Of a stretch of DNA of 64,000 nt, positions 1-33,313 are shown one piece after another. The first letter of the stretch is position 1, and each line of letters begins with the position of its first letter. The notes beneath the pieces are model-generated. The model had not been told where the DNA came from and made no database searches. It saw nothing but the letters and a program-made list of their open reading frames with translations. The stretch lies in contig CATLJY010000241.1 in NCBI GenBank assembly GCA_949987705.1, positions 16,129-80,128 of the forward strand. Reading direction: 5' to 3'. The DNA comes from Thereva unica. Its lineage: Eukaryota; Arthropoda; Insecta; Diptera; Therevidae. The translations under genes were made by a program, and so were the position numbers.

Positions 1-74
1 AACTCCTGCTTCTGTTATATTTTCTTTTTTATATGTATAAATAGGACGATGTTTTTGTTTTTAATTGTTTTTAT

Positions 75-77
<3 letters not shown>

Positions 78-112
<35 letters not shown>
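78..112. repeat. (AT)n microsatellite in the ERV1 3' LTR
   Basis: This is an uninterrupted run of alternating T and A. The matching place in the other LTR (about 19400-19418) is shorter and broken by a G, so the run has changed length since insertion or during assembly. Confidence 0.9.
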
Positions 113-115
<3 letters not shown>

Positions 116-199
116 GTAATATAAAGTTAGTTTAGAATTAGTTAAACTTACGGCCCTTCGCTCCTATTCACGAATGTGGAAATACTACGCATATATATC

Positions 200-1783
200 T
201 TTTTCTTATTATAAATTTGTAGCGCACAAGTAAAATAACCCTTTTTTTTTTCAAAACTAGCTTTCCTTTTCAAACAAAACTGATATTATTTTAAATAAGG
301 CTTGTGGCCCTTCACTTATGTTCGCTAGGGTTAAAACAAAACAACAATTATATTTCGTATCATAAATTTGTAGCGCACAAGTAAAATAACTTTTATCGAA
401 AGTAGTTTTCCTTTTCAAACAGGACTGATACTATTTTAAATAGGACTTATGGCCCTTCACTTATCTTCACTAGGGTTAAAACAAAATTACTATTATATTT
501 CTTATTATAAATTTGTAGCGCACAAGTAAGATAACTTTTATCAAAAATAGCTTTCCTTTTCAAACAAAACTGATATTATTTTAAATAAGGCTTGTGGCCC
601 TTCACTTATGTTCGCTAGGGTTAAAACAAAACAACAATTATATTTCGTATCATAAATTTGTAGCGCACAAGTAAAATAACTTTTATCGAAAGTAGTTTTC
701 CTTTTCAAACAGGACTGATACTATTTTAAATAGGACTTATGGCCCTTCACTTATGTTCACTAGGGTTAAAACAAAATTACTATTATATTTCTTATTATAA
801 ATTTGTAGCGCACAAGTAAGATAACTTTTATCAAAAATAGCTTTTCTTTTCAAACAAAACGGATATTATTTTAAATAGGACTTATGGCCCTTCACTTATG
901 TTCATAAGGTTTAAAACAAAATTACTATTATATTTCTTATTATAAATTTGTAGCGCACAAGTAAGATAACTTTTATCAAAAATAGCTTTTCTTCTCAAAC
1001 AAAACTGATACTATTTTAAATAGGACTTATGGCCCTTCACTTATGTTCATTAGGTTTAAAACAAAATTACTATTATATTTCTTATTATAAATTTGTAGCG
1101 CACAAGTAAGATAACTTTTATCAAAAATAGCTTTTCTTTTCAAACAAAACGGATATTATTTTAAATAGGACTTATGGCCCTTCACTTATGTTCATTAGGT
1201 TTAAAACAAAATTACTATTATGTTTCTTATTATAAATTTGTAGCGCACAAGTAAGATAACTTTTATCAAAAATAGCTTTTTTTTTTTCAAACAAAACTGA
1301 TACTATTTTAAATAGGACTTATTGCCCTTCACTTATGTTCATTAGGTTTAAAACAAAATTACTATTATATTTCTTATTATAAATTTGTAGCGCACAAGTA
1401 AGATAACTTTTATCAAAAATAGCTTTTCTTTTCAAACAAAACGGATATTATTTTAAATAGGACTTATGGCCCTTCACTTATGTTCATTAGGTTTAAAACA
1501 AAATTACTATTATGTTTCTTATTATAAATTTGTAGCGCACAAGTAAGATAACTTTTATCAAAAATAGCTTCTTTTTTTTCAAACAAAACTGATACTATTT
1601 TAAATAGGACTTATGGCCCTTCACTTATGTTCATTAGGTTTAAAACAAAATTACTATTATGTTTCTTATTATAAATTTGTAGCGCACAAGTAAGATAACT
1701 TTTATCAAAAATAGCTTTTCTTTTCAAACAAAACTGATACTATTTTAAATAGGACTTATGGTCCTTCACTTATGTTCACTTTA
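200..1783. repeat. 145-bp tandem repeat array, 11 units, in the ERV1 3' LTR
   Basis: The marker AGCGCACAAG recurs at 221, 372, 517, 662, 807, 952, 1097, 1242, 1389, 1534 and 1681, a spacing of 145-151 bases. Each unit also has CCCTTCACTTATGTTC and a TTTTAAATA stretch. At least two unit variants occur (GTAAAATAAC early, GTAAGATAAC later), and neighbouring units are very alike, as expected from unequal crossing-over or slippage. The other LTR has six units. Repeat arrays in LTRs often hold enhancer or insulator sites. No known protein-binding site was recognised. Confidence 0.95.
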
Positions 1784-1977
1784 AAAACAATCCACCGCCG
1801 CCGATGATGGCTCAAAAAAAAACTCAACTGTTCAAAATTATAATCCCCAAAAATCCGCAACCGCCGACGACCGTGGTTAAGACAACACTTGACAAAATCA
1901 AATTTTCACCCGCCGGTGGTGGCATGGAAAATTGTCCACCGGCTGGGAAAAACGCGCCCTTGAACTTTTTCCCACCT

Positions 1978-2027
1978 GCGCAACTTGCTTACCGCGCGTT
2001 TCTCACGCAGCGTATTGCAAGTTGCGC
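1978..2027. other. 11-bp inverted repeat (hairpin) in the ERV1 LTR
   Basis: GCGCAACTTGC (1978-1988) is the exact reverse complement of GCAAGTTGCGC (2017-2027), with a 28-base loop. The right LTR has the same arms (20554-20564 and about 20592-20603) with one mismatch, and the ERV3 LTR keeps a related pair near 35629 and 35678. Conservation between two related LTRs suggests an RNA structure in the transcribed part of the LTR; this is inferred. Confidence 0.6.
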
Positions 2028-2314
2028 TAGATCGGGTGGGTCAAGTTTCGTTATATTTTAGACGTTTTTAAATTAGCCCCCAAAGGATATTATGAAGTGA
2101 TTCCCAAGTTGAGGATTTTCACTTGCTTGCATTTCTCATAATTCTTGGAAATCTCTTTGCACATTAAAATGTCGTTAAATGTCTTTGAGCATTAAGAAGT
2201 TTCTCCCAACGTAACCCGATACCTCTGCTGATAAGGTATTGGGTTTTCGTTCGGTACTTGTGCTGGCGAGTTGTTTATTAGACTTTTTTTTTGTGTCTTT
2301 TTTTTTATGTAACA

Positions 2315-2330
2315 CTCCTTGGGGGTACCG
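2315..2330 (-). promoter_or_regulatory. Probable polypurine tract of ERV1
   Basis: Directly before the 3' LTR on the minus strand the sequence reads CCCCCAAGGAG and then TGTTACA. The purine run AAGGAG is short for a plus-strand primer, so the assignment rests mainly on its position. Confidence 0.45.
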
Positions 2331-2480
2331 AAAAGAACAAGGCGTCGTCGTGAAACAAAGGCGTCTTGTTCGTTTGAAATTCTTTGGTTTTGTTTACGTT
2401 GCCTTTTCTGGGGTGATAAGGGGCTCGAGATTTGTCCGTTTGTGGCATGTCTTCAGTTGCAGTTTAACGTCTGTAGCATT

Positions 2481-3187
2481 ATGAGGTAAGTTCCCTGGTA
2501 GATTTTCGTATTTATATTTATTTACAAAAAAAAATTTTTTTCTATCTTGTTTTCAGTGATTCAATGGAAAGATCTTTGTATGAGGAGGCGCACCACCAGC
2601 GGGAGTTGGCCCGGGTGCTGAAGGAGAAGGCGAAGTTGGATCAAGAGGAGGCCTTCCACCGGGCTTCGTTGGCCCGGGCTCAAAAGGACTTGGCCAGGAT
2701 GAGACGCCGTGCCCTCCGTGAACGGGGGGGGCAAAACGCTTCGCGTATGGTGGCTTTTGGGAGGCCCGTGCGGGGCGGTGGCGCGTCTTCTTCTTCTTGT
2801 TCCGGGCCCCGCGCTCCCCGGACCATGGGTCCCTGGGACCCCGTGGCTGACTCTGCTAGGAGGAGGGCAGCGAATACTCCCTTGTACCCTCCTGACTTGT
2901 CGGATGACGACTCTGGCGGTTTCGATGATTGGACTGGTGGTTCCGTTCGAGAGGAGAGCGCTCCCCGCCATGTGGGGCCCTGGAACCCCATTGCTGACGC
3001 CCTTGCTTCGATGAGGGCTTTGGAGGTCGACTCGTCCAGGACCGGGGAGGCCAGTAGCATCTTTAGCGAGAACCCTCCCCGGACCGGGGAGGGCAGCGGG
3101 TGCAACACCACTGTGGAGGACCCGGAGGAATATTTGACCGGCCAGTCCCACAACTCCTCCACCCCGGACAATCTTGACTTGGATTAA
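2481..3187 (+). CDS. Antisense, spliced GC-rich gene between ERV1 env and 3' LTR (unknown protein)
   Basis: The gene runs opposite to ERV1. Exon 1 ends ATGAG at 2485, followed by the donor GTAAGT; exon 2 starts at 2557 after CTTGTTTTCAG. Splicing joins ATG-AG to T-GAT-TCA-ATG, placing the exon 1 ATG (2481) in frame with the long ORF from 2564: 211 residues with the intron removed, 207 from the internal ATG. Residues about 5-60 are charged and helix-prone and end in an arginine-rich stretch (RMRRRALRER). Then come a Ser/Pro/Gly-rich part, two copies of a motif around GPW[DN]P[VI]AD, an acidic patch (DLSDDDSGGFDD), two RTGE repeats and an acidic C-terminus. Codons are strongly GC-ending, unlike gag, pol or env. 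AATAAA follows at 3228. No family was recognised. The layout recalls antisense regulators such as HTLV HBZ, but no homology is claimed. Confidence 0.6.
2486..2556 (+). other. Predicted 71-bp intron of the antisense gene
   Basis: It has donor GAG|GTAAGT and acceptor TTGTTTTCAG|T, and is AT-rich with a pyrimidine tract before the AG. A length of 71 bases is ordinary for a small insect intron. Because it is antisense to the genomic RNA of the element, it would not be spliced out during retrotransposition, which explains how it can persist. Confidence 0.6.
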
Positions 3188-3227
3188 GTCCGGGGATGGA
3201 TAGAATACCCAAAAATGTATGGTATTA

Positions 3228-3233
3228 AATAAA
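3228..3233 (+). terminator. AATAAA polyadenylation signal after the antisense gene
   Basis: AATAAA lies 41 bases after the stop codon at 3185-3187. T-rich and GT-rich sequence follows at about 3247-3292, as expected downstream of a poly(A) site. Confidence 0.55.
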
Positions 3234-3692
3234 AAAATTTTTGGAAAATTTTTTTTTTTATTTTGTAGTTTGTTTTTTTTTTGTGTTATTTTTCAGCTTG
3301 TCTAGGGGCGCCTGGGGGTTCTTGCTTTCAGGGTGTTTGTTTTCAGGGCTTCACGACGCTTAGGAGGGGGAGATTTTTTAGGTAAGTATTGTGGTACCGC
3401 CGGTGGGGCGCGTGGTAGTTGGGAGGGGGGGGGGGGGCTGTTTGTCCCTCTCATTTTCTTTTTTATCTATTTTACTGGGAGATTTCCTAGGGGTTTTGGA
3501 GGGTGGCTGTTTGTCCCCCCCCCCTTTTTGTCTTCATATGGCTATTTCGCGATGTATCCCTGTGTATCAGGAATTTTGTTTATTTTTCATCGGGCATGGT
3601 GGTTAGGTAATTATTGTGGTCCCGCCGCGGTGCGTGCGGTAAAGGGTTGGTTGGGTGCCATAGGTGGTACGTTACGGGGCCTATCCCGTAGC
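3234..3692. repeat. G/C-run region with two diverged direct repeats between env and the antisense gene
   Basis: Two blocks resemble each other: GGTAAGTATTGTGGTACCGC near 3380 and GGTAATTATTGTGGTCCCGC near 3605, and GGCTGTTTGTCCC occurs near 3436 and 3508. It contains runs of 10 to 15 G or C. On the minus strand these give long polypurine tracts ending GGACAAACAGCC. A plus-strand open frame (3333-3701) spans the region, follows two CAG acceptor-like sites and reads as a hydrophobic Gly-rich sequence with two LG[KN]YCG motifs. It may be a second antisense exon but is not supported well enough to call. Confidence 0.5.
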
Positions 3693-5597
3693 TTATACTA
3701 ATTGCATGGAAGAGGTCCTGGGTAAGGTGTGTGAGCGGCTAAGCGGCCTGGGTTCGGAGGGTTCTGCCGTGGCTGCGTTGTGTGTTGGTTCCGATTGCAT
3801 TGGGACCCCTACTGGAGCCATTTGGTCCTCGGAGGTGGTTCTCTCATCCGGAGGACTTGCATTTCCGGACCTTCTGGTACATGCAGAACGGGCCATAGCC
3901 GCTAGTAACGGTATGCTTTTGTAGCATGTATACCCTATGAGTACCAGTAAAAGGGTGCCACTGAGCGAGATGGCCGCTGTGGATTGGGTGTGAGTGCGTT
4001 CCCATGTTAGGTGATTCAACTGCGAGTAGATATCTTGCAGGGGCCTTGTGCCTTCCTGAATAATTTTGTTCGTATCGTCACCTGTGAGTAATTTTATGGG
4101 TTCGCCGGGAGATGAAAATGTTGGCCCTGTCCTTTTGGCGGATTCAGCTATATTTAATGTGTCTATTGCCGGGAAGTATGGTGGTTCTAGTATTTGGGTG
4201 GTTCGCGTTGAATGCCCGTTGTACATAAGGATCTTGTCTTCCACTTGTACTTGGCACGGTTGATTAACCCTTAGTATTCCGTGCTTGCCGATTCTTATTG
4301 TATGATTAATTTTATCACACGAGATGCGGAACATCTTAGGTGTACTTAATGAATATAACCACGTGTTCGTTTGTGCCAACTTTGTTATTATATTTTGGGG
4401 ATTGTCATTGGCTCTTATGGGGCAATCCACCTTTTCCCTTAGGGGGTTGTAGAGGAGCTTTATAATACATTCCTTTGTATTGGTAGAAAGTACCATAGGG
4501 ACCTTTAACAGTCCTATGAAGGTGTTGGTCTTTAGGTTCTCCGTGGCTCGTTGTAGGGCTTTTGCCTCTTGGGGGTGGAAGAGTATGAACTTTTCGGCCT
4601 TGAACTCGGAGGCGACATGTGAGTATGGAATGTCGGGAATCAATGAGTACCCTTCCGCAGTATTTAGCGGGAAGACTGTAACTTGATGGTATTGCATTTT
4701 GGGTAAATTAAAAATTGGTAGGGTTATTTTTATTACCAGTTTGTCCTGAATGAGGAGTGCTCGTAGTTGTGTAACCTCAGGCAAGAGTGGGGTGCATTCT
4801 TCGCATTCCGGGTTCGTTTTGGAGTAAATTTTTGACAGTGTACCGGGCGAGATTAGAAGGGGGTGGATTTTGTTGTCTGCACTCGCAAGGATTATATCGA
4901 GGAGCGCTTGTTGTCTGGTTTCTATTTCGGACACCTGCATTAGTAGGTCCGTAACTATCCCTTGCCTTAGTAGGGTATTATATAGGCCCTCGGTCTCGTT
5001 CTGCAGTTTCCCCATCTGCTGAGTTATTTGATCTTGCCGATCTACAAGCGCGATTAACGGTTTTTGAATATCCCGCAGGGTATTGTTTACTACTGTGATC
5101 TGTCGTTTTTCGAGTTCTACTAAAGCTTTCTCGTTACTTTCTAACTCACTTAATCTACTATAAATTTCCTGGGAGTCGTCCGTGTCCATGGTCCCGAACA
5201 GGTAATGTAATGCATGTCCAATGCCGTCGAATAGTGACCTTTTAGGTCGGCTTCTGGGTACCAGTTCCCGTATCGTTTTGGTACGGTCCTTAATATGGGT
5301 GATAATCGAGTGAATGTGTTTCTGTTGGGCCGCGCAGAGTACGGTGGAGTCGCTGGAACATAATTGATGGACCAGCTTCTCGGCTTGTTCCGTTAATTCA
5401 GTGTGCACCTCCAACTCGTGTAGGTCGAGTTCGGTGATCACCTTCCATGTCTGATGATATAGCCACACTTCTCCCACGTGTTCGATAAGGACTCCCGTAG
5501 CCTTGATTGGGGTGAATGTATACGGCATGGGTCCGAGCTCGCTCGTGGCCATTTGTATAAGTAGTAGTACAATTAGCGTCCGCATGGTGCGCTGCAA
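3693..5597 (-). CDS. env: ERV1 env, errantivirus F-like fusion glycoprotein, intact ORF
   Basis: 634 codons from an ATG 30 bases downstream of the pol stop. Residues 1-20 are a hydrophobic signal peptide. A dibasic furin-type site (RSRPKR) lies near residue 120 and is followed at once by a hydrophobic segment with several Gly and Phe, the expected fusion peptide of the errantivirus/baculovirus F-like class. Heptad-rich helices follow (about 140-230). A membrane span lies near residues 545-570, then a cytoplasmic tail of about 70 residues rich in Ser, Thr and Pro. The protein would be cleaved into surface and membrane subunits and mediate membrane fusion. No internal stop or frameshift is seen. 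Env is normally made from a spliced subgenomic RNA; the splice sites were not located. Confidence 0.88.
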   Translation of the reverse strand: MQRTMRTLIVLLLIQMATSELGPMPYTFTPIKATGVLIEHVGEVWLYHQTWKVITELDLHELEVHTELTEQAEKLVHQLCSSDSTVLCAAQQKHIHSIITHIKDRTKTIRELVPRSRPKRSLFDGIGHALHYLFGTMDTDDSQEIYSRLSELESNEKALVELEKRQITVVNNTLRDIQKPLIALVDRQDQITQQMGKLQNETEGLYNTLLRQGIVTDLLMQVSEIETRQQALLDIILASADNKIHPLLISPGTLSKIYSKTNPECEECTPLLPEVTQLRALLIQDKLVIKITLPIFNLPKMQYHQVTVFPLNTAEGYSLIPDIPYSHVASEFKAEKFILFHPQEAKALQRATENLKTNTFIGLLKVPMVLSTNTKECIIKLLYNPLREKVDCPIRANDNPQNIITKLAQTNTWLYSLSTPKMFRISCDKINHTIRIGKHGILRVNQPCQVQVEDKILMYNGHSTRTTQILEPPYFPAIDTLNIAESAKRTGPTFSSPGEPIKLLTGDDTNKIIQEGTRPLQDIYSQLNHLTWERTHTQSTAAISLSGTLLLVLIGYTCYKSIPLLAAMARSACTRRSGNASPPDERTTSEDQMAPVGVPMQSEPTHNAATAEPSEPRPLSRSHTLPRTSSMQLV

Positions 5598-5627: not shown

Positions 5628-8600
5628 TTAAAGTTGGGTTTTATTTTCATAAAACGGTTTCAAGCGGTTATTATGAACGGTGACCAATCTCCTATTTATT
5701 TTGATGGTAGTGTTTACAGCGCTTGGGACCGAAACTACTGTATAGGGCCCGACCCAGATTTGGGATAATTTATGCTTCCGAGCTTCGTTACGTAGGAGGA
5801 CTTTGTCCCCTACGTGGAGTGTGAGTGGGCGTACGTTCCCATCATAATATGCCTTGTAGCGGTTTTTGCTAGCAAGAAGGTTCTTGCGGGCTAGGGCATA
5901 AGATTTTTGCAACTTATACCGGAGTTGGTGGTAGTAACTCTCGTGGTTGTAAAGTGGCTCCGGGTTGCGTTTAAGGTTGGACGGGACGTCGGCAATGAAA
6001 CCATATAGGCAGTCCATGGGGGTAAGTTTGGTCCCCTCGTGTACGCTATTATTGTACACGAACGCTGCCGTGCGCAGAAACTGGTCCCAATTGTTTGGGC
6101 TCTCATCTACTATTGTACGTAGGTACTCGATTAGAGGTCTATGAGCTCGTTCTAGCGCGCCATTGGATTGTGGGTGGTAGGCTGAGGTCTGAAGTTTTTT
6201 AACTTTTAAGAGCCTACACACGCCCTTGAAGAGATCACTCAGGAAATTTGATCCCTGGTCGGTGACTATTTGTTTGGGTATGCGATAGCGCGTGACGATT
6301 TCGTCGAAGAAAATTTGTGCTATCGTTTGGGCTTCCCCATTGGGAATGGCATACCAGTCGACGAATTTTGTCAGGTTATCCTGGAAGGTTAGGATGTATT
6401 TGTTTCCGGAATGGGTTTCTTCCAGGGGACCTACTACGTCTAAATAGACTTTTTCGAAGGGCTTTTCTGCTATGTCTGTAATAACCATGGGCATTCGGAA
6501 TTGTCCAGAGGCCTTCATGGTTTGACATTTCTTGCACCTTCTTATGTAGCGAGTGATATCGCGGAACATGTGTCTCCACCAATATTTACGACGTACGCGA
6601 TTATATGTCTTAACGACTCCCTGGTGTCCGCCGAAAGGGGAGTCGTGGTAGTCTTTCAGTATTGTAGTGATTTCTTCGGGACTTGTAATCACTTCAACTT
6701 TCCTTCGTAGCTCGCTGGAGCTATCCTTGGAGGCTTCGACGGGTTGGGGAATTTCCGTTCCCAAGTCTATTTCTTTAGGCCCTTCGTCGATATTGGGGGC
6801 TTCTGCAGTTGGAACGAGTTCGCCTTTTTCCTCATCCTGCATTTTTTGTGCCTGAGCCCTAGTGACCGCGTTGCATTGTTTCGGTCGTTCACTAGGAGGC
6901 AATGTATTCCCGTTTCTCTCGGGTGATATAGTTAGGGGTTCACCGGGTTGGTGAATTAGAGCTTCCACCGTGAAGGTATTGGACTCTTCTGCTCTTTGGG
7001 GAATCCGGCTGAGAGCATCAGCATTCGTATTGTATTTACCCGGTTTATACTCAATTTGGTAATCGTATTCGGACAGTTTATGGTGAAACCTAACGAGTCG
7101 AGTTGTGGGGTCCTTGACGTTGAAGACTCCCTTGAGAGGTTTATGATCTGTAAAGACCGTAAACTTTCGACCCATCAAATAACACCTGAAGTTTTTAACA
7201 GCCCATACTATGGCTAGCAGCTCCTTTTCGACGGTGGAGTAATTGCGCTCCGCCTTGTTTAGAGTGCGACTTGCATAAGCTATGGGCTGGTCTTGGCCTA
7301 CGATTCCTTGAGAGAGGACTGCTCCGAGTGCCTCACTGCTGGCGTCCGTTGTTAGATTGAACGGTTTTTCGAAATCAGGGTATATCAGCAGTGGTGGGGA
7401 GACTAAAGAACGCTTCACCGTTTGAAATGCTTCCTCGCATTTTGGCGTCCATGAAAATTTCACGCCCTTTCTTAGCAAATTGGTTAGGGGGCGTACTATC
7501 TTAGAAAATTCTGGGATGAATTTTCTATAGTAGTTGGCGAGGCCCAAGAAGGACTGGACTTGTCTGACGGTTCGTGGCGCCGGGAAGTTTTGGACACATT
7601 CCGTTTTTCTGGAGTCTGGTAGGGCTCCCTTTTCAGAGCATACATGGCCCAGGTAGACTACTTCCTTTTTCAAAAATTGGCATTTCTCCGGTTGCAATTT
7701 GAGGTTGTTTTCCCTCAACCGGTCGAATATGCGTCGTAGCTTGGAATTATGATCCTCAAGGTTCTTACCATAGATGACTATGTCATCTAGGTAGACGAAG
7801 CATTCGAGGCCTTGTAGACCCGTAAGGACATAATTCATTAGTCGCTGAAACGTAGCCGGGGCACCTTTTAACCCGAACGGCATACGTTTGAACTCATAGT
7901 GGCCATAGTTCGTGCTAAAAGCCGTCTTGGGGCGATCCTGTGGTTCCACTAGTACCTGGTGGTAACCACTGGCCAAGTCGAGGGTAGAGAAGTATCTCGA
8001 GTGACCGAGCTGGTCCAGGATGTCCTCGATCCTTGGTAAGGGATATGCATCACCTATTGTCTTTTCATTAATTTTGCGGAAATCCACTACTACGCGCCAT
8101 TTTTTCTCACCGTCGGGGCCCGGTTTTTTCGGTACCACTAGGAGGGGTGAGTTCCACGGACTTTTACTGGGTTGGACAATATCGTTGTCCAACATTTCTT
8201 CTAATTGGTCATTAATGACTTGTCTCTGAGTTTCCGGTAGTCTATACATTTTTTGGTTAATGTATTGGTCGTAGACCATGGGGATTTCGTGTCTTAGAGC
8301 TTCCGTGTAGGTTAGCTTGTCCCCTTTTAAGTGGAATATATCGGCATATTCGTAACAAAGATCCCGTATGGACCGCTTCTCGTCGGCCGTTAGAGGGTGG
8401 TCGAGGCTGAGTTCCTCGTCTAGCTGTTTGAAGCGCGTTTCACGCTCAAGGTCCGGATCCTCTTGGTCCGGGAATATGTATCGTAGATGACGGATGGAAT
8501 CGATTTCCTTTTCATTCGTTCCCAACTTCACTTCTGCCCTTTTTCCCTGGGGTATACCTTGCGGGATTGCACCATTATTGGGCATACTTTGGAGTCTTGC

Positions 8601-9662
8601 GTTAGATGACGATGGGGTACTGGCGTTCCTGAGACCGTCTGGTTCAGAGCCTGTAAGATACTCACATACGTCATTAGCATTTGTTGGAGACTTAGGGTTG
8701 TTGTTAGAGGCTAGGTGAATAGTCGTGTAGTCTTTGACTGGGGCGAGCGTAAGGGATAGGCTCGTCAGGACTACTGGTTGGGTGTTAACGTTGATGAGAC
8801 CAACATACACTGTTTTTGTTCCAGCTGGCAAGAGAGAATTGGCGAGGAATACTCCTTCGCTCGGCTCGTAAGATTCACAGAGCATTTCCTCCTCTAATCT
8901 TAGGGGAATGGGGACCACCATTTGAGACCGGCTTGGTAGGCGAATGGATTTCTCCAATGCCACGTTATATTTGCCTGAATTGGCCTCATAGTCGTTGGAG
9001 TTGTTTTCCAACCTTGAACCATCTAGAGATAGGCAGCTGGTATTCCTCTCTGAGGCTACCTGGGAGACACCACCGGGGTTTATATCGGCTACTACGAGTT
9101 GAGATTCCCTAGTTTGGGTTTGCTCCTGCTGCTCTCTAGTGTTTGACTTGGCGGATCCATTGCGTAATGGAATTGCAATTTCTACTGGGTTGATTTCCGT
9201 GCGAGGAAATCGCAGTGTTTGGTTTGGGCCTTCGACGTTACAGTTTTTGGAAAGAAAGTCGTTTCCTAATAGACCATCGTTAGGGATTTCTTGTGTATTT
9301 TGCACAATTTGGAAGGTGCATGGGAGGGGGGCGTTTAGAATGATGTTCCCCTGACAGCTCCCTAATGTTTGTCCTTGGCCGTATGGCGTTTGTAGTGTGC
9401 ATTTTTTAGTGGGATCTGGTAGGTTAGGGTCCTTTAGTTTTTTATGTTTTAATATACTGACCTCAGCGCCGGTGTCCACTGCTAGGTCAGCTTTGCCGTT
9501 AAGGCTTATGTCTAGAGGAAGAGTGACGAGTGGAACACTTGGTTCGGGCGCATGAGGCCCCCCTTTAATATTTTGTGGACTTATTATCGGGCCGGGGTTT
9601 CTTGGTCCGACTGCGGGGAGTTTCCCGCTTGTTGTGATTCCCAGCGCTGTCTTTGATGACAA
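5628..9662 (-). CDS. pol: ERV1 pol: protease, reverse transcriptase, RNase H, integrase
   Basis: The open frame has 1344 codons. The retropepsin motif DTGAEVS is near residue 62 and the RT active site YLDD near 624. An RNase H start (TTDASSEALGAVLSQG) is near 770. The integrase zinc-binding HHCC region is near 1003-1055, with its two Cys in RCKKCQ. The integrase D,D-35-E residues are all visible ([24 protein letters not shown]). The frame overlaps the end of the gag zinc-knuckle frame by 79 bases and is in -1 relative to it, the usual errantivirus gag-pol arrangement. The real protein start comes by frameshift, so the first residues given here are only the open frame. It is the best preserved pol in the window. 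Confidence 0.93.
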   Translation of the reverse strand: MSSKTALGITTSGKLPAVGPRNPGPIISPQNIKGGPHAPEPSVPLVTLPLDISLNGKADLAVDTGAEVSILKHKKLKDPNLPDPTKKCTLQTPYGQGQTLGSCQGNIILNAPLPCTFQIVQNTQEIPNDGLLGNDFLSKNCNVEGPNQTLRFPRTEINPVEIAIPLRNGSAKSNTREQQEQTQTRESQLVVADINPGGVSQVASERNTSCLSLDGSRLENNSNDYEANSGKYNVALEKSIRLPSRSQMVVPIPLRLEEEMLCESYEPSEGVFLANSLLPAGTKTVYVGLINVNTQPVVLTSLSLTLAPVKDYTTIHLASNNNPKSPTNANDVCEYLTGSEPDGLRNASTPSSSNARLQSMPNNGAIPQGIPQGKRAEVKLGTNEKEIDSIRHLRYIFPDQEDPDLERETRFKQLDEELSLDHPLTADEKRSIRDLCYEYADIFHLKGDKLTYTEALRHEIPMVYDQYINQKMYRLPETQRQVINDQLEEMLDNDIVQPSKSPWNSPLLVVPKKPGPDGEKKWRVVVDFRKINEKTIGDAYPLPRIEDILDQLGHSRYFSTLDLASGYHQVLVEPQDRPKTAFSTNYGHYEFKRMPFGLKGAPATFQRLMNYVLTGLQGLECFVYLDDIVIYGKNLEDHNSKLRRIFDRLRENNLKLQPEKCQFLKKEVVYLGHVCSEKGALPDSRKTECVQNFPAPRTVRQVQSFLGLANYYRKFIPEFSKIVRPLTNLLRKGVKFSWTPKCEEAFQTVKRSLVSPPLLIYPDFEKPFNLTTDASSEALGAVLSQGIVGQDQPIAYASRTLNKAERNYSTVEKELLAIVWAVKNFRCYLMGRKFTVFTDHKPLKGVFNVKDPTTRLVRFHHKLSEYDYQIEYKPGKYNTNADALSRIPQRAEESNTFTVEALIHQPGEPLTISPERNGNTLPPSERPKQCNAVTRAQAQKMQDEEKGELVPTAEAPNIDEGPKEIDLGTEIPQPVEASKDSSSELRRKVEVITSPEEITTILKDYHDSPFGGHQGVVKTYNRVRRKYWWRHMFRDITRYIRRCKKCQTMKASGQFRMPMVITDIAEKPFEKVYLDVVGPLEETHSGNKYILTFQDNLTKFVDWYAIPNGEAQTIAQIFFDEIVTRYRIPKQIVTDQGSNFLSDLFKGVCRLLKVKKLQTSAYHPQSNGALERAHRPLIEYLRTIVDESPNNWDQFLRTAAFVYNNSVHEGTKLTPMDCLYGFIADVPSNLKRNPEPLYNHESYYHQLRYKLQKSYALARKNLLASKNRYKAYYDGNVRPLTLHVGDKVLLRNEARKHKLSQIWVGPYTVVSVPSAVNTTIKINRRLVTVHNNRLKPFYENKTQL

Positions 9663-10187
9663 TCGTCTACTTGGTGACCACGTCTGTGGCAGAAATCACA
9701 TCTATATCTAATATTAAACACTGACCTTGTGTTATTGGTTGCCTGTTGACGGTCATTGGGTTGGTTGGTTCCATTATTCATGGGTCGGTTGTTTGGTTGT
9801 CTATTATTATTCTGGTTAGGGGGTTGTTGGTCGGAATAGCGATAATTACCCATAGGTTGTGACCGCGGGTCTGGGTAACGGTTGTTACCTTGGTACTGAG
9901 ACCGCTGGTTGGGGTAACGATTGTTATTGTTATTATTATATGTAGGGCCCTGGTTCTGGTAGCGATTATTACCATTATTGTATGAAGTCCCCTCGTTTCG
10001 GTAACGATTATTATTGTTATTATATGAGGACCTTGGAGGCTCAACTGGTTGGGGGCAGTCCCTCGCGTCGTGCGAGTTGGACCGGCAGATTATGCAGAAG
10101 GGTGTATTTTTGCGTTTCAAACAGTCCGCATAAGTATGCCCTCTGTTTCTGCAATAGCTACAGGTGATGTTTAAGGGTTTATTTTCA
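9584..10187 (-). CDS. gag: ERV1 gag C-terminal part: nucleocapsid with three CCHC zinc knuckles
   Basis: This frame has three CX2CX4HX4C knuckles: CSYCRNRGHTYADC near 10150, CIICRSNSHDARDC just after, and CDFCHRRGHQVDDC near 9680. Between them is an Asn/Tyr/Arg/Gln-rich low-complexity stretch. It binds genomic RNA for packaging. It is +1 relative to the preceding gag frame, which stops at 10185-10187 directly after a run of six A (minus strand). The simplest reading is a one-base length change in that run, so gag once ran through to 9584. It could also be a sequencing error. Confidence 0.8.
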
Positions 10188-11419
10188 TTTTTTGGAACGG
10201 AGCTTAAAGTTGTTACTTGGTTGGCGCTTTGTAGTGGCGCCGCCCGGCGGTATTGTTTGTATTGTGTTTGTTTGGTTTGTGGGTGGGGCGTATGCGGTGT
10301 ACATCACCTGTGGATTTATCGGATTCTGGAGTGTTGTTTGCGGCGTTGTTGGTGTTGGCGGGGCGGTATACTGAGTGTTTGTACTGGGCGTATGTGTTGG
10401 GGCTGTTTGATAGATATTTTCCGGCATATAGGTAGGGACTGGTTGTCCATAAGGGTTATATGCCGGTTGAGGCACTGTCATTTGATAGGAGGCATACATA
10501 GAATTTTGTTGCAGCTTCTCCATATCTAGTGCCTTTTGGGTTAGGCTATCCAATGTGTCTTCTCCCAGAGTCAGGAGATACTGGCAGAGGTGGGGGTTAG
10601 TAACCCCACTTCGCAGGGCATTTTTCGCGAAGTCTTGTAGTTGGGCCTTTACGGCCGGTGCTGCCATCGCACCGTATTTAGTGGTGGCTGCTTCTTCGCA
10701 TAAAGACAATTGTTGTTTGATCCTAGTGGTATAGGCCGTGAGCGGCTCTAAGGGAAACTGGCGTAATTGAATTAATTTGTTGACCAGTTCTTGATATGTT
10801 TCCCTAGGGAGATAGGTCCTGTTTAGGAGGTTTTCTGCCTCCTCAAAAGTGGCGGGTTGGGAGGAGGCAATCAGTTGATAGGCCTCTCCCCGAAGCCTAG
10901 TTGGGTAAATTTGAATAAAGGCGGCCTTTTCTTGTTCTGTCAGGCACTGTAGTACCCGACGGCAACAGCCTAGGAACATTTGCAGTTCAGTTGCCATCGT
11001 TGGGTTTTGGCCGCCAGAGAATAAAGGGACTAGTTGGGCCGTTAATTTGGCGACTTTAATATATTCGTCGGCCATGGCTGTAGGAAATTCTTTTTGTAGT
11101 AAAGATTCGACAAGACGACTGTCTTGAAAGGTCCCCTCCTCTTCCTCTAGGAGGGACAAGGATCGGGTAGAGAGATCGACCCAATCCGCGAGTAGGTCTA
11201 TTGGGGCGTAATCGGGATCGGGCGGTTCAGTGTTACTGTTTTCACAATGGTCCCTATCCTCTATGCTAACCTTATCTACTACTTCAAGGGGGCGTGGGAG
11301 ACTGTTTTTGAAATTGAAGAGGTCCTGTTTAAATTTTAGGGCCTCCTCTTTGAATGCTTCGACTTTAGCCTTTCTTTCTAGGCTGGCCCTTTGGATTTGT
11401 TTATCCACGGCCTCAAAAT
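10185..11419 (-). CDS. gag: ERV1 gag, matrix/capsid part (second piece)
   Basis: The frame continues the N-terminal gag piece (18696-19027) across the CsRn1-A insertion: removing the inserted element and one 5-bp duplication leaves the reading frame unchanged. It is rich in Leu, Glu and Gln with capsid-like helices, including a region like the retrotransposon gag core (CRRVLQCLTEQEKAAFIQI), then a Pro/Thr/Tyr-rich tail. It ends at TGA 10185-10187 after the A run. Gag forms the particle shell. The first open codon near 11408 is not the natural start. Confidence 0.8.
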
Positions 11420-11424
11420 GTACT
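11420..11424. repeat. Left target-site duplication GTACT of CsRn1-A
   Basis: GTACT lies directly before the left LTR. The same five bases follow the right LTR at 18691-18695. Perfect identity shows simple integration into ERV1 gag. Confidence 0.93.
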
Positions 11425-11729
11425 TGTAGACTGGCCTCGTGGTTCTGACCACTTACGATATAACCGGCCGCTACTAGATTTTGGGATTTATTAATAGTTT
11501 TAATTGAAATAACTAATCCGAAATGTATATATATATAGCGTTTATTTAATTCTTAACTATCAATTACTTTTTACTGCGCGCCAACCCGAAACGTCCGAAC
11601 ATCGTGGAAGCTCCAGCAGAAAAGGGACGTTGTTCCGTTCTTCCGGATAATCTTCGAATTTTATACATGTGGTGGATGTCTTCGAAATATGTCTTCGAAA
11701 TGTGAGGTCATAGACACATGACCGCCACA
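11425..11729 (-). repeat. 3' LTR of CsRn1-A
   Basis: 305 bp. On the plus strand it runs from TGTAGACTGG to GACCGCCACA, and it is identical in length to 18386-18690. Confidence 0.93.
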
Positions 11730-12275
11730 TCACTCCCCCTCGGTGAAAGAAGAATATGTTGGAGGTGTTGTGTTGGCTGGCTTTTGTTTGTTCTTAATTG
11801 TGGTTTTTGTTATTGTTTTTATAATTTAATTACAATTCAAATTTATATTTTTACATTTTCTTCAAATTTCTTGATAAATTAATTTTAAGTGTGCTTTTAC
11901 AATTAAATTATAATTCAAATTTGTATTTTTAGAAATGTCTCTATAAAATTTTTTCTTTTAAAAAGGAAATTATTTTACAATTTATGTAGTTAAGCTTGTT
12001 GCGTGCTTATGTTTTACTTTTACATTTAATGCCTATAGCTATAATTCATTTGTTAGTTTACATTGTTTGATTAAATACTTAAAATTTTATGAGAATGAAA
12101 TTTATTGTATCATTTTACCTGAAAAATAAATTTATTGTAATAGTTGAAATTTGCTATTTTTATTAGTAATCCAAAAATTTTTATGTACAACATATTTGTT
12201 TAATCATCTTCTTAATTGATTCTATTTCATTTTATTTTTTACATATCGATATTTTGAAAGTTTTATATTTTTTAT
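11730..12275 (-). other. CsRn1-A 3' untranslated region with polypurine tract
   Basis: On the minus strand GAGGGGGAGTGA abuts the 3' LTR, a good polypurine tract. The CsRn1-B element has AGAGGGGGAGTAC at the same place. The rest is AT-rich, without genes, and holds nothing else recognisable. Confidence 0.75.
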
Positions 12276-15200
12276 TTATAATAGAAACTTGACTCGTTTT
12301 TTATTTTTTGATCTAGTGTTTTGTGCGGGGGTAGACACATCAGGATTTAAAGTGTACGCGGGTTTTAACCTGTCAATGTTAATAAACTCTTGTTTACCGT
12401 TTACTAATATTTTAAAAATTTTATCTTGTCTTGATAATACTTCGTGTGGGCCTGTATATGGGGGATTGAGGCTTCCCTTATAGATTGGGTCTTTTATGAA
12501 AACATGTGAGCATATGGCTAAGTCTTGTGGGACGAAAATGTTATTTTGTTTACGATGTCTAGTATTCTTTGGTTTTATGTCGAGAATCGCGTTTCGAATG
12601 TCTATCGCCATGTTTGAGGTGAGTGTTAGGTCTGTAGGTATTTCCGTAGTTATTAATTGTCCGGGCAAGCGTAAGGCTTGTCCGAAAAGCAGTTGTGCTG
12701 GTGCTATATTTAAGTCCTCAATGATGGCTGACCTGATCCCTAAGAGTATCCATGGGATATTTTTATACCAGTTCTTAGGATCTTGGGTGGCGCGAATTGC
12801 CGTTTTGAGTTGTCTGTGGAAACGTTCTACGGAACCATTGGATTGAGGGTGATATGTGGTTGTGCGAATTTTTTGGTTGCCTAAGACGACAGAAATTTCT
12901 TTAAAGAGGGTTGACTCGAACTGAGTGCCTTGATCCGTGGTTATGGTTTTTGGAACTCCATAAACTGATATCCAACGGCGTGTGAAGGCGTCAACTATTG
13001 TATTCGCGTTCATGTTTCGTAGAGGTATGGCTTCAGGCCAATGGCTAAAACGGTCTTTGATTGTCAACAGGTATGTGTGTCCATTAGAGGGAGGTAAAGG
13101 TCCAACTATGTCCATGTGGACGTGCTCGAATCTCCCACTGGGTACTTGAAAAGTTCCATGTGGAGAAATCGTATGTCGTTGCGTTTTTGCTTTTTGACAA
13201 GCAATGCATGTTTTCGACCAGGAGGTTATTTCTTTGTTCATTTTTGGCCAAAAATATCGTGACGTAATTAGGTTTTTGGTTGCTCGGATTCCCGGGTGGG
13301 AAAGGTTGTGCAGCAGAGCGAATAATTCGTAGCGTAAGGGTTCTGGAACGTATGGCCTGTTTATGTTTGTGGAAGTTTCGCACCATAGCTCTGTTTGTGT
13401 CGTTGAGTCGGGTATTTTTTTTAATGTGAAAGAAGATGGTTTTGAATTTTTGCTAGCTGCCTCTATTAATTTATGAAGCTGTATGTCTTTCTCTTGTTCG
13501 TTAACTAGAGTATGGTGGTCTATGCCTTTTTTGGTTTCTATATTTTCTAAGTGTGCTCTGGATAGTGTGTCCGATACCACGTTTTCACTGCCTTTTATGT
13601 GTCTAATATCCTGCGTAAATTGTGATATGTAATTTAGCTGGTTTATTTGTCGCGGTGATTTTTCCGCTTTCGACGTTAAAGCGTTAGTTAATGGTTTGTG
13701 GTCCGTGTAGACCGTGAAGTTTATACCATCAACGAAATATTTGAAATATTTGATTGCTAGGAAAATTGCTAATAGTTCTCTGTCAAATGTAGAGTATTTC
13801 TTCTCATTCGGTTTTAGCCGTTTTGAGAAAAAACTAATTGGCTCCCAATTTTTGGCACTTTTTTGTTGTAGAACTGCGCCTACGGCGTCGCTTGAGGCGT
13901 CTACAAAAAGACTAATGTCGGCTTGCGGATTTGGGTGTGCCAATAAAGTATGGTTTTCTAAGTCTCTTTTTATTTGTTGAAAAGCTTTTTCGTGATCCGA
14001 GGACCACTCCAGAGAGGTTTTAGTTCGTTCTCTCTTGTTTGAATCTTTGAGTAGAGCGTACAATGAACTTGAAGTTATGGCTATTTTAGGTAGAAAGCGG
14101 TGATAAAAATTTATCATGCCTAGGAAACGTTGCAATTTTTTTATCGTTGTTGGTGTTGGAAAGTCCTTTATGGCCTGGATTCTGTCTTCGGAAGGTGCTA
14201 TACCGTTTGCTGTTATTTTGTGCGAAAGAAAATCTAGCTGATTTACACCTAGTAAACATTTTGCTGGGTTAACGTTAAGTTGATATTGTTCGAGCCTAGT
14301 GAACAGTAAAGCTAAATGTTTCTTGTGTTCTTGGGGGGTTTTGCTAGCAACCAATATGTCATCTACGTAAGTAAAGATAAAATTTAGACCGGATAAAACT
14401 TCGTTGATGAAACGTTGAAATGTTTGCGCACCGTTCTTTACACCGAATGGCATTCGCAAAAATTCAAAAAGCCCAAAGGGTGTTGTCACTGCAGTTTTGT
14501 ATATATCTTCCGGTGCAACCGGGATCTGATGATAAGCTCTGACAAGGTCTATTTTGGAAAAAATTGTGCAACCGTGAAGGTTTATAGTAAAGTCCTGTAT
14601 ATTTGGTAGTGGATACTTATCAAAGACTGTTGCTGCGTTTAACTGCCTGTAATCTCCACAAGGTCTTAGGTCGGTGCAACCTTTCTTGGGTACCAGATGG
14701 AGTGGGGAAGCCACTGGAGAGGCTGACGGACGGCATATTCCTAACTTGACCATTAACTCAAATTCTGCCTTGGCTATGTTGTATTTTTCTGTATTAAGCC
14801 TACGTGGACGGGCGGATGGCAAGGGACCTTCAGTGTTGATTTTGTGAACGACATTGTGTTTTACTTGATCGTTGAAGTTGGGAGGTGTTATTAAAGAAGA
14901 AAATTTATTCAGTATTTTCCCATATTCGTCTTCTAGGGCATAAAGTTTTGGTGGTGAAAAATGAACCTTTCGTGAGATGCCTGTCACCGAAAGTGTAGTT
15001 GTTTGGTCTCTCAGTTGCCTGTGTCTGAGATCTACTAATAGATTATATTTGTATAGGAAATCTGCTCCTAAGATTGGGTGATCTACGGCTGCTATCACGA
15101 AATTGTGAATGAAAACGCGGCGTAACTGAAGGTTTAATGCCAATTGTTTGGTGCCGTAGGTGGATATCAATGAGCCGTTTGCTGAAACAAGTTTGAAATC

Positions 15201-15340
15201 TGTCGTGGCTTGGCTTGGTTTGCATGAGCTTTTTGGTAATACCGAGATTTCCGCTCCTGTATCTACCAAAAAGTGTTTATTGGAATTATTATCAAACACG
15301 AATAGGCGGCGCGATAATTCGGGTGGCTTCGATGCCGCTG
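12276..15340 (-). CDS. pol: CsRn1-A pol: PR, RT, RNase H, IN (intact frame)
   Basis: The open frame runs at least from 15299 (1007 codons) and continues upstream towards gag without a natural ATG; it is in -1 relative to the end of gag. Counting from 15299, the protease motif DTGAEIS is near residue 13, RT YVDD near 311, RNase [11 protein letters not shown] near 465, the integrase HHCC region near 660-700, and integrase DDE residues in HMDIVGP (727), TTDQGTQF (786) and NGSVERFHR. All catalytic residues are present. The sequence pairs closely with CsRn1-B pol (59040-61969) but is clearly a different family. This is the most complete non-env pol in the window. Confidence 0.92.
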
Positions 15341-15355
15341 TCGAAACCGTGCAAG

Positions 15356-16298
15356 TTAGTTTTTTTGGGTTTGATTGTCTACGCTTGTCTTTCTATTATT
15401 TCTGTTGTTGGAGTTTATTACAGCAAAATTGCATGGAGCAAGGCATTTCTTGGCTTTTTCTTTAAATTTGAGGTGATACCAGCAACTATTTTGTACCGAC
15501 GGCGACCGTGAGTGTTGTCTTTCAACTGTTCGACTATTGGAAAACGTTCTGTGTCTAGGTCTTGCGATGCGGGTTTCTATGCGCTTGAGTCTATTTGACA
15601 GACTATAAATGGTTTCACGTAACTTGTCTATGCTCTGTTCCTGTGAGTTGTTTGAAATATTGGTCGGGTTGCGATTGTGGCCTTGCTTTAACGACGATAT
15701 TTGAGCTGTTGACGTCGTGGATTCTATCTGCGATAGAGAAAAGTTTATCTTGATCCGTTGAAGATTCAATGGCTATCAAGCAAGTTTGAGTGTTACTTGG
15801 AAGTTTGCTCATCCATAATTTCTTTAATAATTCTCTGTTTACCAAATTATTTGTGCCTGCTAGCGATTCCATATGGCGGAATAATTCCGACGGTTTGTAG
15901 TTCCCGATTTCTACCTTATGTAACAAAGCATCTAACCTGCGTTCTTCCGAGTCTTGTGTTCGACTTAGGAGATGTGATTTCAAATTTTCGTACTTGTTGA
16001 GCAATGGTGGATTGAGTAAAATATCAGCTACCACTTCCATTGTTTCGGGTGGTAGTGAAGCTACAAGGTGGTCATATTTTGTATTTGAGACAGTTATGCC
16101 TTTTACACGGAATTGTGTCTCTACCTGCAAAAACCACAGGTCTGGCCGGTTGTTCCAAAAAGGTGGAATTTTTAGGGATGCCGCCATGGTTGAGGAAACT
16201 GTCTCTAACACGTTATGCTTTGATGTACCGGGTGTTTGTTGTTGTTCCAAAACTTCCTGTGGGTTTGATCGAGTTTCGTTCGATTGTTCTGTCGACAT
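15356..16298 (-). pseudogene. gag: CsRn1-A gag with one frameshift
   Basis: The first part (16298 down to about 15700) matches CsRn1-B gag over the capsid region (PPFWNNRPDLWFLQVETQFR). After about residue 190 the homologous sequence continues in the +1 frame (15769-15356), which ends with an Arg/Ser-rich part and a CX2HX9CX3C box (CWYHLKFKEKAKKCLAPC). That CHCC box is typical of the CsRn1 clade. The 155-base overlap of the two frames places the frameshift between about 15615 and 15769. Gag would form the particle core. Confidence 0.85.
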
Positions 16299-18370: not shown

Positions 18371-18384
18371 GGTCGGGGTCACCA
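18371..18384 (-). promoter_or_regulatory. Primer-binding site of CsRn1-A
   Basis: On the minus strand TGGTGACCCCGACC begins one base after the 5' LTR. It starts with the complement of a tRNA CCA end. From knowledge of the CsRn1 clade this is a tRNA-Trp type primer site. Confidence 0.75.
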
Positions 18385-18385
18385 T

Positions 18386-18690
18386 TGTAGACTGGCCTCG
18401 TGGTTCTGACCACTTACGATATAACCGGCCGCTACTAGATTTTGGGATTTATTAATAGTTTTAATTGAAATAACTAATCCGAAATGTATATATATATAGC
18501 GTTTATTTAATTCTTAACTATCAATTACTTTTTACTGCGCGCCAACCCGAAACGTCCGAACATCGTGGAAGCTCCAGCAGAAAAGGGACGTTGTTCCGTT
18601 CTTCCGGATAATCTTCGAATTTAATACATGTGGGGGATGTCTTCGAAATATGTCTTCGAAATGTGAGGTCATAGACACATGACCGCCACA
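18386..18690 (-). repeat. 5' LTR of CsRn1-A
   Basis: 305 bp, almost identical to 11425-11729. It differs at ATTTAATACATG versus ATTTTATACATG and at GTGGGGGATG versus GTGGTGGATG. Confidence 0.93.
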
Positions 18691-19301: not shown

Positions 19302-20891
19302 TGTTATATACTTTTTTATCACTAACTCCTGCTTCTGTTATATTTTCTTTTTTATATGTATAAATAGGACGATGTTTTTGTTTTTAATTGTTTTTATTAC
19401 ATATGTATATATATATATTTGTGTAATATAAAGTTAGTTTAGAATTAGTTAAACTTACGGCCCTTCGCTCCTATTCACGAATGTGGAAATACTACGCATA
19501 TATATCTTTTTCTTATTATAAATTTGTAGCGCACAAGTAAAATAACCCTTTTTTTTCAAAACTAGCTTTCCTTTTCAAACAAAACTGATATTATTTTAAA
19601 TAAGGCTTGTGGCCCTTCACTTATGTTCGCTAGGGTTAAAACAAAACAACAATTATATTTCGTATCATAAATTTGTAGCGCACAAGTAAAATAACTTTTA
19701 TCGAAAGTAGTTTTCCTTTTCAAACAGGACTGATACTATTTTAAATAGGACTTATGGCCCTTCACTTATGTTCACTAGGGTTAAAACAAAATTACTATTA
19801 TATTTCTTATTATAAATTTGTAGCGCACAAGTAAGATAACTTTTATCAAAAATAGCTTTTCTTTTCAAACAAAACGGATATTATTTTAAATAGGACTTAT
19901 GGCCCTTCACTTATGTTCATTAGGTTTAAAACAAAATTACTATTATGTTTCTTATTATAAATTTGTAGCGCACAAGTAAGATAACTTTTATCAAAAATAG
20001 CTTTTCTTTTCAAACAAAACGGATATTATTTTAAATAGGACTTATGGCCCTTCACTTATGTTCATTAGGTTTAAAACAAAATTACTATTATGTTTCTTAT
20101 TATAAATTTGTAGCGCACAAGTAAGATAACTTTTATCAAAAATAGCTTTTCTTTTCAAACAAAACGGATATTATTTTAAATAGGACTTATGGCCCTTCAC
20201 TTATGTTCATTAGGTTTAAAACAAAATTACTATTATGTTTCTTATTATAAATTTGTAGCGCACAAGTAAGATAACTTTTATCAAAAATAGCTTTTCTTTT
20301 CAAACAAAACTGATACTATTTTAAATAGGACTTATGGTCCTTCACTTATGTTCACTTTAAAAACAATCCACCGCCGCCGATGATTTCTCAAAAAAAAACT
20401 CAACTGTTCAAAATTATAATCCCCAAAAATCCGCAACCGCCGACGACCGTGGTTAAGACAACACTTGACAAAATCAAATTTTCACCCGCCGGTGGTGGCA
20501 TGGAAAATTGTCCACCGGCTGGGAAAAACGCGCCCTTGAACTTTTTCCCACCTGCGCAACTTGCTTACCGCGCGTTTCTCACGCAGCGTATTACAAGTTG
20601 CGCTAGATCGGGTGGGTCAAGTTTCGTTATATTTTAGACGTTTTTAAATTAGCCCCCAAAGGATATTATGAAGTGATTCCCAAGTTGAGGATTTTCGCTT
20701 GCTTGCATTTCTCATAATTCTTGGAAATCTCTTTGCACATTAAAATGTCGTTAAATGTCTTTGAGCATTAAGAAGTTTCTCCCAACGTAACCCGATACCT
20801 CTGCTGATAAGGTATTGGGTTTTCGTTCGGTACTTGTGCTGGCGAGTTGTTTATTAGACTTTTTTTTTTGTGTCTTTTTTTTTATGTAACA
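19302..20891 (-). repeat. 5' LTR of ERV1
   Basis: 1590 bp, from TGTTATATAC to TATGTAACA on the plus strand (inverted ends TGTTA/TAACA). It has six 145-bp repeat units and is nearly identical to 1-2314 outside the repeat array. LINE sequence follows directly. Confidence 0.92.
19507..20345. repeat. 145-bp tandem repeat array, 6 units, in the ERV1 5' LTR
   Basis: The marker AGCGCACAAG occurs at 19528, 19677, 19822, 19967, 20112 and 20257. The first two units match the first two of the other LTR, and the last matches its last unit, so the five extra units in the other LTR are internal. Confidence 0.95.
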
Positions 20892-27317: not shown

Positions 27318-27432
27318 CTATAAAGGAGAAACATTAATTTAAGAAGTGCTTCTTAGACTATCTTCGTAGTTGAACTTAATCTAGGATATATTTATGATTA
27401 TTGCTACGCTACATTATATGGTATTGGAGTCA

Positions 27433-27783: not shown

Positions 27784-27907
27784 TGTCTACTATCGGTAGT
27801 AAACAAATCTTGGTAATAGGGCGTTTTAATGTCGAATCCTTGCACTTTACTGTCACTACCCTCACTAGATTATCTGGGACCAGGATGAGTCTCAATAATA
27901 CGTCCTA
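27773..27907. repeat. Direct repeat, copy 2, in BEL/Pao pol
   Basis: The second copy is 339 bp from the first. It lies where the second half of the integrase core should be and ends at the break of the integrase frame. Confidence 0.9.
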
Positions 27908-32752: not shown

Positions 32753-32756
32753 ATTG

Positions 32757-33307: not shown

Positions 33308-33313
33308 TAAAAA

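Follow-up and report, generated by a model that had tools for sequence, protein, structure and literature searches.

Evidence for a spliced antisense accessory gene between env and the 3' LTR of an insect errantivirus

Introduction

Antisense accessory genes at the 3' end of LTR proviruses have already been described in deltaretroviruses and in LTR elements of plants. HBZ and APH-2, -3 and -4 of the deltaretroviruses are antisense protein genes at the 3' end with spliced transcripts (accessible text of PMC10186651), and in the primate T-lymphotropic viruses such genes affect sense transcription (parts of PMC10186651 and PMC7264820). The plant aORF-3R genes, which include maize Grande gene23, rice RIRE2 and Silene Retand TRP28, lie antisense in the interval that separates the 3' LTR from the final sense gene and are present in most copies of their elements, according to the accessible portions of PMC7264820 and PMC11963269. 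Grande gene23 is described as having an upstream promoter and a nuclear product (PMC7264820, in a passage that cites Gomez-Orte 2013).

Among animal LTR elements, the mussel Steamer-like MchSLE-1 has an antisense mRNA and ORF (accessible text of PMC10974842), and the gypsy-like Cer1 of C. elegans has a spliced accessory gene, CERV, that is divergent between species and without a homologue outside the nematodes (accessible text of PMC10309623). A 2023 review found that endogenous retroviruses had yielded no evidence of antisense proteins (PMC10186651). No errantivirus with an antisense gene was found in the open-access literature searched, as far as its available text extends; this includes the accessible parts of accounts of Drosophila errantiviruses and insect endogenous retroviruses (PMC13172572, PMC12992720), and no comparable antisense gene appears in those of the rotifer and annelid work (PMC5408684, PMC8220671). 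The Drosophila elements have an env-F tree that mirrors that of pol, against exchange between lineages, and recombination among rover variants has been reported (accessible text of PMC12992720).

Here the analysis of a 64,000-nucleotide stretch of Thereva unica DNA (the window) is described. From its sequence, and that of related copies in the same genome, an errantivirus in it almost certainly has a real spliced antisense gene.

The provirus and its neighbourhood

The element that hosts the antisense gene is an errantivirus on the minus strand (Table 1), with matches to Baculo_F in env, to reverse transcriptase, RNase H and integrase in pol, and to Retrotrans_gag. Its pol is gypsy-type (RVT_1 3.7e-39, RT_RNaseH 5.7e-39, Integrase_H2C2 1.7e-21), its F-type env is downstream of pol, and its LTRs are paired, 528 of 532 positions being identical outside tandem repeats. 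These repeats of 145 bp number about 11 in the 3' LTR (1-1850) and about 6 in the 5' LTR (19406-20450), and despite this unequal number the two LTRs of the provirus are ~99% identical outside them.

Table 1. Features of the errantivirus and its antisense gene, in window coordinates
Feature	Position	Strand	Basis or remark
3' LTR	1..2314	-	begins before window base 1; direct repeat of the 5' LTR
Conserved block from LTR to exon 1, candidate antisense promoter	2315..2437	+	contains GATAAG and an inverted repeat
TCAGTT, candidate initiator	2453..2458	+	AGTT kept in 35/35 aligned copies
Exon 1, coding part ATGAG	2481..2485	+	ATGAR in 40/40 copies having exon 1
Intron, 71 nt, GTAAGT...TTTTCAG	2486..2556	+	GTAAGT/CAG in 34/35 + 5/5 copies
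Exon 2, coding part	2557..3187	+	omega 0.45 in the antisense frame; spliced product 211 aa
Long predicted helix, residues 2-65	2567..2758	+	AlphaFold2; heptad hydrophobics; conserved EAHHQREL core
PWNP tail motif	2978..2989	+	invariant in 7/7 sequences of alignment A1
AATAAA polyadenylation signal	3228..3233	+	sequence of the window
env, baculovirus F type	3693..5597	-	PF12259, E 2.1e-20; downstream of pol
pol (RT, RNase H, integrase)	5628..9662	-	Pfam domain matches
gag part (gag at least)	10185..11408	-	PF03732, E 4.6e-6
5' LTR	19302..20891	-	adjoins a PBS-like stretch; repeat of the 3' LTR

The surrounding DNA is rich in other elements. A gypsy-type element carrying a DUF7041 ORF is nested at 11424-18690 (LTR pair 99.3% identical over 306 bp), and a BEL/Pao element lies on the minus strand at 24649-33799 with an env that matches Monjiviricetes_fusion (PF24664, E 1.4e-131), which we take to be a chuvirus-type glycoprotein. 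From 34081 to 58973 a 12.4-kb unit, 99.8-99.9% identical, is repeated in tandem and holds pieces of an errantivirus pol; within this region, at 52097-53341, is a DDE_Tnp_1_7 transposase, presumably of piggyBac type. Seven antisense sequences gave no match at E ≤ 0.1 to the window's other elements, including the related one at 34-59 kb.

Layout and conservation of the antisense gene

The antisense gene is located on the plus strand between env and the 3' LTR, opposite gag-pol-env. A preliminary description of the window had put here an ATGAG exon 1 before GTAAGT, a 71-nt intron, an in-frame join to 207 codons and a following AATAAA, and every one of these coordinates checks out. The splice join yields MSDS followed by 207 residues, and unspliced exon 1 would read ATG AGG TAA; exon 2 has an ATG of its own at 2564 and a stop codon at 3185-3187. 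The GC-rich composition said to set the gene apart from the rest of the element is likewise borne out, exon 2 having 62% GC vs 47% in env and pol. The same GC-rich block leaves frames of 196 and 163 aa open on the opposite strand, and when the block was shuffled 500 times with dinucleotides preserved, 34 of the shuffles attained the stop-free length of the observed frame; consequently the frame by itself is not beyond chance, and ORF length was dropped as evidence for coding. It is conservation in other copies, as read from their aligned sequences, that puts the antisense frame beyond chance, unlike its length.

A DNA search of the 910-Mb genome found 49 matches, and the 30 best were taken as loci; one of these is the window itself, and the window sequence was substituted for it in the 30-row alignment. 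(Counts of matching stretches over the whole genome, 118, 85, 69 and 72, come from overlapping searches and are not additive.) Of the 30 aligned rows, which come from these best 30 of 49 matches, 16 keep a frame of at least 189 aa open, 12 have a shortened one and 2 are only partial. The protein ends as in the window in seven of the 16 open copies (in L018 with a stretch shifted internally), and the remaining 9 have another C-terminus in common that is reached through a frame shift.

The 5' part of the gene was compared in 35 copies (the window, 28 close and 6 divergent), all of which pass a screen for ATGARGTA that L048 fails. Six more divergent copies were fetched, five of which have exon 1, for a total of 40; L038 and L048, without exon 1, were excluded. 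The exon 1 ATG joins in phase with the conserved core in 40/40 copies (35/35 + 5/5), and GTAAGT...CAG is present in 39/40 (34/35 + 5/5), the exception, L039, having GTAGTT...TAG. Intron length ranges between 62 and 129 nt and includes every remainder modulo 3, and therefore the frame is not maintained by read-through. Moreover, in 7/40 copies (4/35 + 3/5) the interval from acceptor to core is without an ATG, so that translation of the core there would require the exon 1 start, i.e. splicing. The search of related copies for the ORF and its splice sites that had been proposed in the preliminary description thus found sites and phase kept throughout the 40 copies, apart from the altered sites of L039.

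Of the 12 divergent copies fetched, 9 have the gene flanked by the LTR and by env. L039 is without an env match, L043 is without an LTR match and has only 26 residues of env, and L048 has neither flank. Of 11 divergent copies, 8 have an AATAAA no more than 65 nt from the stop, and L041, L043 and L052 have none there. The possibility, also raised earlier, that the block is an ordinary host exon fragment present in one copy does not hold, the gene being found in many proviral copies. L048 was considered as a standalone host copy and rejected: it is a fragment, because its homology starts within the intron and takes in the 3' flank of the antisense gene. This fragment (L048:1346-2031), without env or LTR, has beside it a terminal sequence, which we take to be pogo/Tigger-like. 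Other antisense-gene fragments lie in a single orientation at C1:5.88-6.15 Mb and C1:47.32-47.67 Mb (18/18 and 6/6 rows), and both of these graveyards resemble unistrand piRNA clusters of the flamenco kind.

Selection on the antisense frame

In all counts of selection, codons with gaps or stops were removed, and some of the pN/pS sets include frameshifted copies. Pairwise pN/pS in the antisense frame is 0.32-0.43 over six comparison sets. The comparison of dN/dS between copies, which the preliminary description had named as a check, gave omega 0.449 in a codon model of 12 distinct copies and 159 codons, with lnL -1070.77 vs -1075.81 when omega is fixed at 1 (5.04 log units, statistic 10.1, one parameter). 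For the window-like group by itself omega is 0.462 (lnL -968.49 vs -970.49, statistic 4.0), and for the second group by itself it is 0.493 (lnL -801.73 vs -803.22; 1.49 log units, statistic 3.0), which is not significant. Bootstrap intervals exclude 1 in 4/5 pair sets, the interval for L025-L028 (0.22-1.83) including it. As estimated from these codon comparisons, purifying selection on the antisense frame is moderate.

The antisense frame is also the best-scoring frame in 8/8 divergent comparisons. The other five frames have omega values of 1.06, 2.02, 0.86, 2.96 and 0.51. The last of these belongs to the opposite-strand frame with the 163-aa ORF (pN/pS 0.43-0.62), which is expected to mirror the antisense frame because third codon positions are common to both. 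This frame too seems to be under constraint, to a lesser degree than the antisense one. The opposite-strand frame with omega 2.96 deviates from 1 by 7.05 log units; its second positions fall on the antisense third positions, and we take the deviation to be the same mirror effect.

Exchange of the coding cassette

Six divergent copies (L039-L044) were read first with their flanks. Their antisense proteins are 31-54% identical to that of the window. L040 illustrates how sharply the divergence is confined: its env is 97.6% identical over 634 aa, its pol, in a separate piece of the same place, 94.7% over 471 and 98.9% over 89 residues, and its DNA 98% identical over 2301-2400 but only 43-67% over 2401-3300. 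L015 has the opposite arrangement, with the window's antisense type (97% of nucleotides) and a pol, in a separate piece, that is 95.9% identical over 635 residues, but an env only 47% identical over 141 and 62% over 224 residues. Env exchange in this errantivirus is seen when L015 and L045 are compared with the window, a divergent env lying between similar pol and antisense genes.

Where fetched, the pol backbone is 94.7-98.9% identical. Six antisense types were counted, without a formal threshold: window; L039; L040/L041, counted as one; L042/L051; L043/L050/L052; and L044/L048/L049/L053. The window's env type (~89-98% identical across the bulk of the matched length, dropping to 77% in short segments) is paired with four antisense types, namely those of the window, L040/L041, L044/L049/L053 and L050/L052. 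Conversely, two kinds of env accompany the window's antisense type: the window's own, and a second group whose identity to it is 47-71% over long matches and 74-85% in short C-terminal stretches; L037 and L038 retain first-type env ends. By these sequence comparisons the antisense gene is a unit that behaves as an exchangeable cassette, separate from env, and such diversification and exchange would be fitting for a protein engaged against a partner that itself changes.

The encoded protein

The basic N-terminus, internal repeats and acidic C-terminus attributed earlier to the window product are all confirmed: residues 1-60 contain 15 K+R and 10 D+E, and residues 131-207 contain 4 K+R and 14 D+E. 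Tail charge varies among types, being acidic in 4/7 sequences and basic in 3/7. In a single-sequence AlphaFold2 prediction pLDDT is 97-98 for residues 11-50 and 83 for 51-60, falling after 60 to values mostly near 50 in the predicted tail (mean of the whole model 63.9, pTM 0.30). Hydrophobic residues at 15, 18, 25, 36, 39, 43 and 46, read by eye from the alignment, form a heptad pattern on the long predicted helix, and the protein therefore most likely forms a coiled-coil dimer through it. An arginine-rich stretch lies near the end of the helix. The tail is of low complexity; its PWNP is kept in 3/5 further copies, being lost in L051 and L052, and a PWDP occurs earlier, ending near residue 93.

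A search of a 5.8-billion-sequence protein collection with the single protein and with the seven-sequence alignment found nothing. Elements of this kind are scarcely represented in that collection, in which the env of this provirus has no more than three relatives at E ≤ 1e-10, so a lack of matches there is weak evidence and says little about other insects. At E ≤ 1 the window protein has no Pfam match, and neither the bZIP family nor TRP28 (PF04195) is among the Pfam matches of the seven sequences. Weak hits of single members at this threshold (YscX 0.0057, Zwint 0.079, CENPU 0.17) were rejected. A profile search of solved structures matched two chains of V-type ATP synthase subunit I (E 0.14), which were dismissed as generic helix matches. 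Since neither a homologue nor a known domain was found, proposals on function are drawn from the form of the protein alone.

A candidate control region

Just inside the LTR, upstream of exon 1, is a block of ~120 bp that is 93-98% identical over 2301-2400 in 5/6 divergent copies (54% in L043), unlike the coding part of the six, which is ~39-73% identical. L037, L043, L050 and L052 have a variant form of the block. Within it, at 2335-2371, is an inverted repeat, GAACAAGGCGTC...GGCGTCTTGTTC, which is nearer perfect in some types (GGCGCCTTGTTC in L040 and L044) and might bind a protein or form a hairpin in RNA; the plus-strand RNA fold of the block has no marked excess stability (z -1.2). The block is followed by ~17-23 variable bases, a motif centred on AGTT, and then ATGAR|GTAAGT. 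The TCAGTT form of this motif in the window resembles, we assume, an insect initiator. The arrangement suggests an internal promoter just inside the 3' LTR, and the internal block at ~2315-2437 is more likely to be that promoter than is the LTR itself.

Proposed expression and function

The preliminary description's proposal of an antisense spliced accessory gene agrees with the phase kept in 40 copies, the selection on the frame and the seven copies whose only available start is reached by splicing, and also with the location between LTR and env in most of the divergent copies fetched. Very probably, then, the errantivirus has here a genuine accessory gene that codes for a protein and is under selection, with expression, protein form and a regulatory role along the following lines. 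Transcription would proceed opposite gag-pol-env, probably from the gene's own promoter just inside the 3' LTR, and the transcript would be spliced once and polyadenylated before env. Since the intron is not an intron when read in the sense genomic RNA, the gene would survive retrotransposition. The protein would dimerise through its long N-terminal helix, bearing the arginine-rich stretch near its end, and the disordered tail would present the short docking motifs PWNP and PRTG. Most likely the protein regulates the provirus or the host response to it, and regulation and counter-defence taken jointly probably cover its function.

The likeliest single role, which nevertheless falls somewhat short of an even chance, is that of a nuclear regulator like HBZ or the APH proteins that tunes or dampens sense transcription from the LTR and so aids persistence of the provirus. 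Position beside the 3' LTR, splicing near the start, the predicted long helix with its arginine-rich stretch and the acidic tail of some types all suit such a role; so do, in the accessible text of PMC10186651 and PMC7264820, the effects of the primate T-lymphotropic antisense genes on sense transcription and the nuclear location of the Grande gene23 product. Against it, the protein matches neither bZIP nor another DNA-binding family, and the gene-proximal part of the LTR is 85-100% identical in L040, L041, L042, L044, L049, L051 and L053, which represent three other types, so that nothing in these copies points to an LTR target specific to the type; the same part is only 78-79% identical in L039, L050 and L052.

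It is possible, with rather less confidence, that the protein counteracts a factor of host silencing or restriction and that its types have diversified in an arms race. This would account for the strong divergence of coding sequences where env, pol and flanks of the proviruses are almost the same, for the cassette exchange and for conserved short motifs on a disordered tail, and fragments of the gene do lie in same-orientation arrays that resemble unistrand piRNA clusters; purifying selection within types and the lack of a known suppressor domain in the protein argue the other way. A broader and still more tentative reading is that an infectious insect retrovirus here carries a polymorphic module for conflict, the antisense gene, whose six or more types are traded independently of env, mostly behind one conserved promoter block. 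Its proteins might then serve in counter-defence, directed at a host factor that diversifies, or might be regulators specific to their type that determine which of the co-resident proviruses can be expressed, and the regulator version may be compared with heteroimmune phages that swap immunity regions. If true, this would be, according to the searches made, the first antisense protein gene in an animal endogenous retrovirus. The exchange of the cassette apart from env provides a natural variant series for testing the role of such genes, and insects offer accessible genetics and piRNA biology for their study.

A factor for RNA export or packaging, in a role like that of Rev or of the CERV of Cer1, is unlikely. 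The helix end is arginine-rich, and Cer1 is a gypsy-like element that needs its own nuclear export protein (accessible text of PMC10309623), but CERV is longer and comes from a spliced mRNA sharing gag exons and frame, and the plus-strand fold of the block here is ordinary. There is very little to recommend a non-coding antisense RNA whose open frame is a by-product of the GC-rich block: shuffled sequences do match the frame in length, and the micropia element of Drosophila hydei offers a precedent in antisense RNAs without coding capacity (accessible text of PMC7264820), but such an RNA accounts neither for a phase kept across a variable intron in every copy with exon 1 and the low omega, nor for the protein similarity retained between types. 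Least credible of all is a constrained sense-strand frame, an env extension or overlap mirrored by the antisense one, since of the 196- and 163-aa frames open in the window the first has omega 0.86 and the second 0.51 against 0.45, the latter scores below the antisense frame in every divergent comparison, and splice and polyadenylation signals are both on the antisense strand.

Comparison with known systems

The kinds of gene closest to the protein-coding antisense accessory gene favoured here are HBZ and the APH genes and the plant aORF-3R genes. With HBZ and the APH genes it shares the antisense orientation at the 3' end of a provirus. The likeness to HBZ drawn in the preliminary description stands for position and predicted splicing and fails for the bZIP domain, of which no match was found; APH-2, -3 and -4 also lack that domain (accessible text of PMC10186651). 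The deltaretroviruses are, moreover, an unrelated virus family whose antisense transcripts start in the 3' LTR, whereas the candidate promoter here is outside the LTR, and the errantivirus gene is a divergent cassette, unlike HBZ and APH.

With the plant aORF-3R genes the position of the ORF is shared, and presence in most copies holds barely, a frame of at least 189 aa being open in 16 of the best 30 matches. Those genes are known from plants and one fungus, the main texts of PMC7264820 and PMC11963269 never use the word intron, and the TRP28 domain of Retand has no counterpart among the matches of the errantivirus proteins. MchSLE-1 differs in having a 67-aa ORF with a proposed 3' LTR promoter, and no evidence of an intron or of selection is given in the accessible text of PMC10974842. 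CERV, at 517 aa, is not antisense and has exons and frame in common with gag (accessible text of PMC10309623). Finally, the Drosophila errantiviruses and insect endogenous retroviruses share the gag-pol-env(F) backbone, but env and pol of the element studied here disagree, unlike the mirrored trees of the former. As far as the searches go, it is thus the errantivirus host, the intron-dependent start and the exchangeable cassette that are new in this gene.
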